A stretch of DNA of 60,751 bases from Mixta tenebrionis (GTDB lineage Bacteria; Pseudomonadota; Gammaproteobacteria; Enterobacterales; Enterobacteriaceae), in assembly GCF_006517625.1 (NCBI RefSeq), contig NZ_VHQI01000017.1, positions 1 through 60,751 on the forward strand, written 5' to 3'. Positions 18,305 to 21,040 of the stretch are shown here, one piece after another. Under the pieces are notes generated by a model. The model made no database searches. It was given only the letters and a program-made list of their open reading frames with translations, and was not told where the DNA came from. The position numbers were made by a program, and so were the translations under genes. Each line of letters starts with the position of its first letter. Positions within the stretch are counted from its first letter, which is position 1.

Positions 18305-19018
18305 ATGAATACTCTGGCGGTAATTTTATCGGGTCAGGGAGAGACGCTTTTAATAACGTTATGTAAAACCGGCGTCGCTTTTATTCTGGGAGGGGCGATC
18401 GGGCTGGAAAGGGAATCAAAAGGGAAACCTGTCGGCTTTAAAACCTGCACTATTATTGCGGTAGCAAGCTGTATACTCACCGTTGTATCTATTCAGTCGG
18501 CGGAGTATTACGCCGCGCTTTCCAGCAATATCCGTAGCGATCCGATGCGGCTGGCCGCGCAAATTATCAGCAGCGTCGGGTTTCTGGGCGCCGGCGTGAT
18601 TCTGCACCGTCATGACGATGCGATTTCAGGTCTGACAACGGCCGCCATCGTCTGGGCTTCTGCTGGAGTGGGGATAATCAGCGGCGCTGGTTTTTTTGTT
18701 CACGCGCTGCTTGCTACCGGCTTATTCCTGCTGGCGATCAAACTCAGCTACTTTGTTGTTTTTTTGCAAAGTAAAAATCACCTGCCGGGCAAAGTAAAAA
18801 TCCGTGTCATTCTTGATGAGAAATCAGGGCTAAAAACGTTAACGGATACTATTTATCAGCAGCGAAATATTATTGAGGCTGTTACTATTCGCGATTTGAA
18901 AAAGGGGAAGGTTGAGGTCAATCTTAAGGTGGTGATCAGAAAAAAAATGACGCTGCCTGAGCTCTACACGCAGCTTTCCGCTATCGATCACGTCTGCGCC
19001 ATCGCCCTGGAACACTAA
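18305..19018 (+). CDS. MgtC/SapB-family membrane protein
   Basis: The 237-residue protein has the MgtC fold, with four to five N-terminal helices carrying GGAIGLERESKGKPVGFKT, VGFLGAGVIL and GLTTAAIVWASAGVGI, followed by a C-terminal cytoplasmic ACT-like domain. MgtC of Salmonella inhibits the F1Fo ATP synthase and is needed at low magnesium; many relatives are simply membrane proteins of unknown role. No mgtB gene is adjacent. The SD (GGAGG at 18294-18298) is good. It follows the hydrolase by 66 bases, so co-transcription is possible but unproven. Confidence 0.9.
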   Translation: MNTLAVILSGQGETLLITLCKTGVAFILGGAIGLERESKGKPVGFKTCTIIAVASCILTVVSIQSAEYYAALSSNIRSDPMRLAAQIISSVGFLGAGVILHRHDDAISGLTTAAIVWASAGVGIISGAGFFVHALLATGLFLLAIKLSYFVVFLQSKNHLPGKVKIRVILDEKSGLKTLTDTIYQQRNIIEAVTIRDLKKGKVEVNLKVVIRKKMTLPELYTQLSAIDHVCAIALEH

Positions 19019-19499
19019 GAGCCGTCGTGGTTATCTGCTGCTTCAGGCAGGATAAGTAATGGCGTTTTCTGCTGATAATAGTTTATGAGATCGGGCCATT
19101 AAATCTTTTTTTAATATGAAACATTATGCACCGTAAAGGTGCTATTAAGAATGAATGCATAGTTACAAAGGATCTGTTAATTTGAAATAGTTAAATAGTT
19201 ATTACGATTAACGACGTTGTAATTTTTTATTAAAAATTATTCATCATTTAAACCCCAGCCTGGCCGCTGGGGTTTTGTTTTTTTAGCAAGGCGAATGTTG
19301 AATTTTGGACAAAATAACAGCTGTTGTTAGTGAGGTTTGTTTTGCCATTCCTGAGTAAACAGCAAGGACTGGTGGACCCTCCACAAAAGAATAGTATTAA
19401 GGCAGTAACGCTGACATTAAAAATGCTTAACGAAACGAGCTGATGAAAGCCAGTGTTATATCTGTGCCTTATTGCACTGCGTAAACTAAGGAGGAAATT
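19019..19499. other. AT-rich intergenic gap before the lysozyme-like gene
   Basis: These 481 bases hold no convincing gene. A small GCACC/GGTGC hairpin (19128-19142) lies in AT-rich sequence, and a strong terminator lies at 19253-19284. The remaining 215 bases before the GTG at 19500 should contain its promoter, but I see no box that I would defend. Confidence 0.6.
19253..19284 (+). terminator. Intrinsic terminator between mgtC-like gene and lysozyme gene
   Basis: CCCCAGC (19253-19259), loop CTGGCC and GCTGGGG (19266-19272) form a perfect 7-bp stem followed by TTTTGTTTTTTT. It reads on the + strand. It lies 234 bases after the MgtC-like stop, so it may end that transcript or a small RNA encoded in between. 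Confidence 0.85.
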
Positions 19500-20216
19500 G
19501 TGGGCCAAAAAGAAACAGCCCAACGGATATGGAATTATCTGACGGGGCGACGATGGAGCAGTCAGGCAGTCGCAGCGGTATTAGGTAATATGCAATCTGA
19601 AAGTGGAATTATTGCCGATCGTTGGGAATCCGATCTGGTCGGTAATATGTCCGGTGGCTATGGATTAGTACAATGGACGCCAGCTACAAAATATATCAAT
19701 TGGGCAAAATCAAACGGACTGGTTTACCAGGATGTAATCAGCCAGTGTAAGCGCCTTGAATGGGAAGTGGAAAATAATCAGCAATTTTATCATCCCTCTA
19801 TGACATTCAGGCAATTTACACAAAGTAAACAACCACCGGAATATCTGGCTGATATTTTCATTCGTTATTATGAACGACCCTACAACCCAAACCAACCGGC
19901 CAGACAGTCCCAGGCCAGATACTGGTTCAACCTTCTCGTAAACAGTAACACGAGTAATGATACAGATAACAATGCAAACAGTAATAAAAATAAGGAGTTA
20001 GAAGATATGATTTTTAGGTATGTAAAAAAAGCCAACGGAAAAAACGGAGAAATTTGGGCCGTTCATGGATCTAAACGCTTTCATCTACAAAATATGACGC
20101 AGGTGAATTACTTTGATGAACTGGTTGCAAATGAAATTGGGCGTAAGCCGAAAGTATATACTTTTGACGAGAGCGATACACGCTTAAAGATGATAGAGGG
20201 GATCACAAAAATTTAG
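19500..20216 (+). CDS. Phage-tail-lysozyme-type peptidoglycan hydrolase, orphan
   Basis: Residues 1-147 of this 238-residue protein match the phage tail lysozyme family best known from tail tips and endolysins of Gram-positive phages. The segment IWNYLTGRRWSSQAVAAVLG leads into NMQSESG with the likely catalytic Glu34, and then GGYGLVQWTPATKYINWA. An Asn/Ser/Asp linker (about 148-166) joins a C-terminal domain of about 70 residues that may bind cell wall. There is no signal peptide, so a holin, lysis, or injection system would be needed. The GTG start has a perfect TAAGGAGG at 19487-19494. The gene is AT-rich and lies next to tRNA-Arg(CCU), suggesting transfer. No other phage gene is adjacent. 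It could also be a T6SS-type effector, but no immunity gene is apparent. Confidence 0.75.
   Translation: MGQKETAQRIWNYLTGRRWSSQAVAAVLGNMQSESGIIADRWESDLVGNMSGGYGLVQWTPATKYINWAKSNGLVYQDVISQCKRLEWEVENNQQFYHPSMTFRQFTQSKQPPEYLADIFIRYYERPYNPNQPARQSQARYWFNLLVNSNTSNDTDNNANSNKNKELEDMIFRYVKKANGKNGEIWAVHGSKRFHLQNMTQVNYFDELVANEIGRKPKVYTFDESDTRLKMIEGITKI
19991..20216 (+). promoter_or_regulatory. Internal ribosome binding site and in-frame start for the C-terminal domain
   Basis: TAAGGAG at 19991-19997 lies 9 bases before an ATG at 20007, which is codon 170 of the lysozyme frame. Initiation there would give a separate 69-residue product (20007-20216) that contains only the domain after the linker. Several Gram-positive phage endolysins are known to make a free wall-binding domain from such an internal start. 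Here this is an inference from the match and its position at the domain boundary. Confidence 0.45.
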
Positions 20217-20883
20217 ACAAATTACCGGGAAGCAACTCATTTTCACTTTACAGGCTCGCTTCAATGAGCCTTATTTAATTGCAGGTTTCGACATCCAGGG
20301 AAATACCACCATTACTACTTATTTCACTTCCCTATGCCCGGTTAGTGACAGAATGTTATTATTGAATATTCATTGCATCTAACCGGTATAGCTATGTAAA
20401 CAGACTCTGAACTTGTGCATATGCCACTCATTGGCGATATCGCTAAACGAATAAGCGGCAGCTTCCTTTTTATTGCTTTATTACCTGCTTCTGCTGAGCT
20501 GGATTGACACTGTTAATCAACCCCAGCTTTACGTCAGTCTGTTTTACTCTGACTCCCATGGATCACATCTCAAGGGAGAGGCCAACGTCCAAAGCTGTTT
20601 CTTTATTCCCGAAGCGGTATTGCAGGTGCCAAACCTTCCTGCCTGATGACGGAACGAACAGGAAGGCTGCCGGTCAGTCAGGCAATACGATCTCTCCTGA
20701 AGCTTTGCTTTAGGGCAAAGGTACGGACATAAAACCACGGGGGTTTTAATTATGCCTGCAATATGCCAACAAAATATCGGTGTAATCAATGAATAGTGGA
20801 TAATGCTGGATAACTCAGCTGGGTGCTTAAGCCTTAAAGTAAGGGGGTTTGGTAACGTAAAGGAGCGGTAGGTAGTGTCAATA
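20217..20883. other. Intergenic gap between lysozyme gene and tRNA-Arg
   Basis: These 667 bases contain no gene that I can support. A hairpin at 20252-20276 may terminate the lysozyme gene. Two weak hairpins lie at 20703-20720 (CTTTGC/GCAAAG) and 20731-20747 (AAAACC/GGTTTT). Short open frames on both strands (for example 20504-20713 and its antisense at 20544-20789) lack ribosome binding sites. The region is on the 3' side of a tRNA used elsewhere as an integration site, so it may be what remains of an inserted element, but I found no second copy of the tRNA end. Confidence 0.6.
20252..20276 (+). terminator. Possible terminator of the lysozyme-like gene
   Basis: AGGCTC (20252-20257), an 8-base loop and GAGCCT (20266-20271) form a 6-bp stem followed by TATTT. 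The stem is short and the T-run is broken, so termination efficiency is uncertain. Confidence 0.4.
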
Positions 20884-20958
20884 TGGCGTCCCCTGCAGGA
20901 ATCGAACCTACAACTAGCCCTTAGGAGGGGCTCGTTATATCCATTTAACTAAGGGGAC
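20884..20958 (-). tRNA. argW: tRNA-Arg (anticodon CCU)
   Basis: Read on the minus strand, the 75 bases run from GTCCCCTTAGTT to AGGGGACGCCA. The acceptor stem GTCCCCT/AGGGGAC pairs perfectly, the T arm carries GTTCGATTC, and the anticodon loop CTCCTAA gives CCU, which reads AGG codons. The CCA is encoded. In E. coli argW occupies the same place beside yfdC and is the attachment site of a prophage, consistent with the foreign-looking lysozyme gene on its 3' side. Confidence 0.95.
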
Positions 20959-21040
20959 GGCGGCGGGCAGTATAGCGCAATTTTTGCCGCAGATTAACCA
21001 CTTACCCGCCTGACTGCTTATAATATCGACAGCTTGACGC

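Follow-up and report, generated by a model that had tools for sequence, protein, structure and literature searches.

The locus described here raises the question of what a lysozyme of Gram-positive style, apparently made in two forms, is doing on its own in the genome of an enteric bacterium. In the window (the whole stretch of DNA that was analysed, 60,751 nucleotides long) the gene occupies 19500..20216 of the forward strand, from a GTG start at 19500 to a stop codon that ends at 20216, and encodes 238 amino acids. A Shine-Dalgarno (SD) sequence for the full-length protein, TAAGGAGG, lies at 19487..19494 (+), 5 nt 5' of the GTG, with an anti-SD duplex energy of -12.0. The original prediction had described an orphan tail lysozyme with an internal start for its binding domain; read directly, the reading frame, both SDs, the ATG at codon 170, the linker and the neighbouring genes are as it had them.

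The gene and its candidate second start

The N-terminal part of the protein is a phage tail lysozyme domain of the phi29 gp13 type (PF18013; 19512..19937, +). The profile is matched over its full length (positions 1-140 of 140, protein residues 5-146, E 2.9e-36), and at 125.2 bits the score lies above the curated cut-off of 28.2; with its nearest relatives in the Lactobacillales, the predicted lysozyme fold of Gram-positive style is thus upheld. Glu34 aligns with Glu45 of phi29 gp13, which we take to be the catalytic residue there. The lysin is the sole PF18013 match in the window's own 4.66-Mb genome, and PADLOC and NCBIfam contain no match to it. The lysozyme domain is followed by a linker rich in Asn, Ser and Lys (19938..20006, +; residues 147-169 of the translation), modelled at a pLDDT below 50 for residues 151-168, and by a cell-wall-binding domain of a multimerising type (20007..20216, +). 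Starting from the in-frame ATG at codon 170, this domain would be a free product of 69 aa. An internal SD, TAAGGAG (19991..19997, +), lies 9 nt 5' of this ATG, with its AAGGAG in codon register 0 and a duplex energy of -8.8. Modelled alone and without an alignment, the 69-aa domain reached a pLDDT of 63.6, a low confidence.

To what extent is the second start a feature of the family? We scored the anti-SD duplex before the boundary Met in 21 genes, comprising 11 lysozymes (including those of the window, of a second genome of the genus, G005, and of a viral contig, L079) and 10 partner hydrolases. Of the 21 domain-start Met codons, 19 have energies of -7 kcal/mol or lower; these reading frames contain 87 further in-frame internal ATGs, one of which is as strong, their mean being -1.95 and their best value -7.5 (Fisher p 6e-18, over rows that are related and not independent). 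The boundary sites weaker than -7 are those of the L009 lysozyme (-6.6) and of NlpC-a in L017 (-6.9). The Met sites were designated as domain starts after the pattern had already been noticed, and rows from one locus or class are not independent; taking one gene per binding-domain class, in our own grouping, strong internal SDs are present in 7/7. The scoring omits the L017 lysozyme, which has no boundary Met, as well as genes with other C-termini (L008, L012, L013, G089, L075, L076, L077, L019 and L058). Conservation of the internal SD and of Met170 was thus as the original prediction implied: 10 of the 11 lysozymes reach -7 kcal/mol, and both SD and Met persist in the majority of relatives that have such a domain, in G005 and L079 as in the window. 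Additionally, in the alignment the boundary Met of the window lysin lies at most one codon from the proven internal start of the enterococcal phage endolysin LysIME-EF1. Among relatives of LysIME type (seven loci, six of them read and L095 omitted) the Met is present in 6/6, with weak SDs (-5.4 to -5.8) in 4/6.

A sceptic could see in the internal SD and ATG a mere coincidence of a Lys/Glu-rich linker, since AAGGAG is often spelled by codons of the KGE type. Indeed, for the other 20 genes 13-46% of synonymous recodings of the linker gave an SD as strong as the one observed, and the combined p of 0.042 over all 21 genes rises to 0.12 minus the window, so that the encoded KGE motif accounts for much of the relatives' signal and recoding is weak evidence overall. 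Nonetheless, the window itself gives p 0.015, and its AAGGAG register differs from the register 1 of the relatives that have this motif; together with the rarity of equal strength at other internal ATGs and the nearness to the proven start of LysIME-EF1, this makes coincidence hardly credible. Judged from these sequence signals, the lysin very likely has a second product.

The island at the tRNA-Arg gene

The window lysin is the only recognised gene of a segment of about 1.28 kb (19038..20314) between blocks that are conserved in the genus: homology to G005, on the mgtC side, ends at 19037, and homology to G003 and G006, on the tRNA side, begins at 20315. GC content is 0.35-0.45 in 300-base windows over 19000-20500; the MFS and ccmF genes, by comparison, are at 0.56-0.62 and the mgtC-like gene is at 0.49. 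The latter (MgtC family, PF02308) lies at 18305-19018, and on the other side a tRNA-Arg gene (anticodon cct) occupies 20884..20958 on the reverse strand. Within the genus, this tRNA gene is a hot spot for integration. Of the seven other genomes, three (G002, G004 and G007) have homology that starts beside it at 20883, and in G005 homology starts at 20888; G001 carries an exact 76-base copy of 20883-20958 at 6.1 kb from the stretch that resumes at 20940; and integrase genes (PF00589) adjoin the site in G005 and G003. Judged by Pfam for the integrases and by eye for the rest, the site holds an integrase plus a phage-like island in G005 (L035:2118-14439) and, in G003 (L036:3030-11270), an integrase plus lambda-like tail genes.

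As had been predicted, the gene stands alone: no holin, no signal peptide and no partner hydrolase were recognised at the locus. Six other ORFs of at least 40 aa lie in 19019-20883, and the four of at least 60 aa were scanned; none has a Pfam match or a holin-like PHROG, and their one weak PHROG match is to an unknown family (E 0.015). Terminator-like hairpins, found by a pattern scan as consensus matches only, are placed 5' (19250..19275, +) and 3' (20252..20271, +) of the lysin. A scan of 19000-21000 for consensus sigma-70 promoters returned none where 4.6 were expected by chance, and Rfam recognised only the tRNA at this place. A search for attachment-site repeats flanking the island gave no convincing direct repeat. 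A 20-nt stretch in its left part (19188-19207) matches the tRNA-Arg gene (20932-20951) in inverted orientation at 85%. At the DNA level, prophage leftovers were sought in the island; there was no E. coli match, and all seven phage matches fall within the lysozyme motif. We would read the window copy as what remains of an island at the tRNA-Arg hot spot for integration.

Contamination is an unlikely source of the gene, which is embedded among genes of enteric type on a 60.75-kb contig and has flanks that align to relatives; moreover, a sister gene is found at a different place in G005, a two-contig genome of the genus.

Relatives in Lactobacillales and in enteric late regions

The lysin has its closest relatives in Enterococcus and Lactococcus, with up to 84% identity in the lysozyme domain. 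In a scan of the whole collection, which detects close relatives only, all ten loci were titled Enterococcus, Lactococcus or Lactobacillales, their best segments being 63-84% identical (one of them, L004 in G665, is titled Enterococcus and belongs to the family sample of a Lactococcus genome). At E 1e-40, matches occur in 9/105 Enterococcaceae genomes and in 5/295 genomes of the Lactococcus family sample. Among enterics the gene is rare. The PF18013 cut-off is passed in 3/392 sampled Enterobacteriaceae genomes, including the window's (G226 stays below it), and protein searches found the lysin in 2/8 genus, 2/295 family, 1/394 order and 1/369 class genomes, the window's own being counted each time. 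The 5,426 E. coli genomes gave no match to the window stretch, to the G005 gene or to that of G089, and P0002 had no confirmed match in viral contigs. Besides the window, the enteric carriers are G005 of the same genus, G089 of one other genus and, presumably, the viral contig L079; uniqueness to this genome was therefore not borne out.

In a tree of 25 rows the window lysin pairs with that of G005 (86/64, not starred), and the G089 gene falls in with two from the Enterococcaceae sample (98/96, starred). For the starred branches to hold, the labels must change at least twice, for which two transfers into enterics are the simplest account. Transfer apparently went from Lactobacillales into enterics, the direction being our inference from sequence kinship. 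Between window and G005 the lysozyme domain has a dN/dS of 0.114 at a dS of 0.72, an average over the whole divergence that includes time spent in phages.

In the Lactobacillales loci that were read, the lysozyme often adjoins another hydrolase, which likewise ends in a short domain of this kind and has a boundary Met of its own. These partners are a CHAP protein in L004, M23 in L006, Amidase_5 in L009 and L010, CHAP-like proteins (by eye) in L011 and L005, three hydrolases in L017 and one in L078; one of these loci is a viral contig. Within a locus (L078 being left out of this comparison) the binding domains of matching pairs are 97, 96, 86, 83, 70, 68, 58 and 25% identical, and the four other pairings in L017 give 21-27%. 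Since neighbouring hydrolases of different classes share binding domains, each with a boundary Met, mixed rings of two enzymes are conceivable. The flanks of L004, L006, L009 and L010 (eight proteins, two per locus) belong to ordinary chromosomal families; L013 and L017 adjoin phage-like genes (by eye). Elsewhere, a gene for a phage tail tip lysozyme (L085:995-2293) sits on an 8.9-kb Pediococcus plasmid, among whose ten annotated features there is no other phage structural gene.

In all three other enteric loci the lysin lies behind the antiterminator Q. The cassette of G005 consists of a divergent S24-type repressor, Q (PF06530), a lambda-type holin (PF05106), the lysin, which lies 46 bp 3' of the holin, a lipase-like alpha/beta hydrolase, a phrog_873 protein (labelled endolysin, with no Pfam match) and Rz (phrog_214). 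By eye, no further phage gene was recognised between a molybdopterin oxidoreductase and an SbcB-type exonuclease, and the site corresponds to about 310 bp in the window's genome. The small stand-alone cassette (L014:6383-11210), in which no capsid or replication genes were recognised, looks like a domesticated lysis-and-release unit. Partial matches to it occur in 725/5,426 E. coli genomes, none above 80%; in one E. coli relative the order is Q, holin, GH104, a hypothetical gene where Rz would stand, and terminase, with no gene between holin and GH104. In L079 the order is Q, NUDIX, GH24 lysozyme, lysin, a second GH24 with an N-terminal hydrophobic stretch, Rz (PF03245), a GMC oxidoreductase and a DUF3383 gene. 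This lysin is 82% identical to that of G005 over its length, and from the Q and Rz families the host of L079 would be enteric. The oxidoreductase adjoining Rz (L079:5749-7311) is weakly cholesterol-oxidase-like (NCBIfam E 4e-33, far below the cut-off). In G089 a cI-type repressor region (by eye) is followed by Q (Pfam) and by a lysin of 475 aa that combines PF18013 with Amidase_5. No other hydrolase was seen on the stretch examined, and the contig ends before the standard lysis genes, so that the lysin could be the endolysin there. Behind it lie two genes (L016:11874-13024) that resemble, by eye, a secreted ADP-ribosylating toxin and its partner subunit, the first being placed by PHROGs only in an unknown family.

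Two of these three loci (G005 and L079) have, besides the lysin, an endolysin or endolysin-like gene as well as Rz, and the lysin therefore looks like extra cargo. The original prediction had left the route of delivery open. For the window this stands, as no route was recognised; for the relatives, which lie in late regions under Q control, one of them with a lambda-type holin, a route exists in phage lysis.

Proposed role and known systems

The window gene is a real, rare and apparently transferred lysin, and the carriage of an enterococcus/lactococcus-type lysin by Gram-negative enterics, as prophage cargo, suggests a weapon against Gram-positive neighbours. Specifically, we propose, at a probability of roughly 0.6, a two-product bacteriolysin of Lactobacillales phage origin that enteric prophages carry as cargo, that is released by lysis and that attacks Gram-positive walls from outside, the window copy being orphaned and possibly silent. 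Domains, kinship, internal-start signals and adjacency to lysis genes in two relatives are read from the sequence; from them we infer multimer, target, release, expression and direction of transfer. Translation from the GTG would give the full-length chain of lysozyme and binding domain, and from the internal ATG free binding domains. These would likely join the full chain in a ring, as in LysIME-EF1 with its one full chain and three free domains, and the ring would raise avidity for a wall polymer of enterococcal type. Enteric prophages would have taken up such genes, apparently at least twice, as additional late cargo behind Q. When holin, endolysin and spanin of the phage lyse the producer, the lysin, dispensable for that lysis, could escape and hit Gram-positive neighbours from outside. 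The window copy would have been orphaned at the tRNA-Arg integration site with its gene intact; lacking lysis genes and an obvious promoter, it would need another lysis event for release, and its expression may be low or absent. Of the candidate mechanisms, the putative anti-Gram-positive role is the best supported.

The strongest alternative concerns the window copy only, which could be a dead prophage leftover with no present function while just its relatives are active. A single recognised gene between two terminator-like hairpins, at a tRNA-Arg hot spot and without a consensus promoter, is what one would then see. We consider this a serious but somewhat doubtful option, given an undamaged frame, two undamaged SDs, a retained binding Arg and a low dN/dS against G005, although the latter value averages the whole divergence, phage time included. 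An unlikely option is that the lysin is an alternative endolysin of enteric phages, with a holin giving it access to the producer's own peptidoglycan and its Gram-positive ancestry incidental. The lack of a visible signal peptide, the position directly behind the holin in G005 and the lone hydrolase seen on the G089 stretch would fit. Against it, G005 and L079 also have an endolysin-like gene or GH24 lysozymes, plus Rz; nothing in a Gram-negative wall is an evident ligand for a binding domain of enterococcal type; and the start of that domain is kept in the window, G005 and L079. Finally, a virion-associated tail lysin that opens the wall at phage entry, like gp13 in phi29, is suggested by family name and fold and by such a role proposed for LysT in the accessible part of PMC10377672, but it is highly improbable in view of the short two-domain layout with a free binding-domain start and of the late region in which the enteric relatives lie, beside lysis genes in two of three; for these relatives a tail-associated role was rejected on account of their place behind Q and not among tail genes.

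If the cargo reading is right, a broader one comes to mind, which we hold at somewhat less than even odds. Enteric prophages and domesticated lysis cassettes may time and again acquire multimeric bacteriolysins from enterococci and lactococci; set free by lysis, as a colicin or phage-borne toxin is, these would kill Gram-positive competitors across the phylum border. The enzyme would be retargeted by exchange of its internally started binding domain, which is of LysIME-EF1 type in the window and of Lys170 type in the sister gene, and hydrolase pairs with near-identical binding domains at the source loci might share one ring. An enterococcal type of binding domain with an intact internal start in enteric genomes points to the transfer of an anti-Gram-positive enzyme between phyla, and relatives beside enteric lysis genes make the weapon hypothesis directly testable. 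In titles and abstract openings, a scope that largely excludes subscription literature, we found no report of such a lysin in an enteric prophage. A survey of endolysins with two products confined itself to phages of Gram-positive hosts, internal starts having been thought unlikely elsewhere, and set aside proteins with tail domains (PMC9430671).

Several known systems invite comparison. Bacteriocin 41 (BacL1/BacA) was considered as kin and rejected, its SH3 repeats being different in the portion of the source available (PMC9951850). The lysozyme domain of phi29 gp13 (3CSQ/3CSR) corresponds to the catalytic domain of the window lysin, at 51% identity (tblastn), but gp13 belongs to the phage tail and its C-terminal part is a different one. 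Prophage lysins of L. lactis, likened here by description, resemble the window lysin in lacking a signal peptide and in having C-termini of unknown type; they include one tail-type lysozyme and are reported to act as bacteriocins, and they differ in having a Gram-positive producer (PMC10377672). There, LysL and LysP kill other strains, whereas LysT, the tail-type lysozyme of 233 aa, also present in the supernatant, is active in zymograms yet neither killed indicator cells nor made them leak (PMC10377672). Lys170 of the enterococcal phage F170/08 (binding domain 7D55) is an amidase by its PDB name, and the window domain is nearer to LysIME-EF1 (PDB 6IST). The latter has a CHAP catalytic domain in place of the tail lysozyme and is an endolysin of a phage with a Gram-positive host; a lysis role beside a holin, as in LysIME-EF1 and Lys170, was not seen at the window locus, where the four ORFs scanned include no holin-like gene, and we therefore do not claim the name endolysin for the window gene. 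What the gene does share with this type is a homologous C-terminal binding domain and an in-frame internal ribosome-binding site and start at its boundary, of the AAGGAG kind as in LysIME-EF1, whose internal start works in E. coli by the part of the study available (PMC7098653). Of the two residues of the tetramer-breaking double mutant, placed by hand from the alignment, Y218 is Phe and F184 is Ala in the window. R190, described in the same accessible part as essential for binding (PMC7098653), corresponds to Arg193 of the window lysin, and this Arg is kept in all six further Enterococcaceae relatives compared by eye (seven loci were found).
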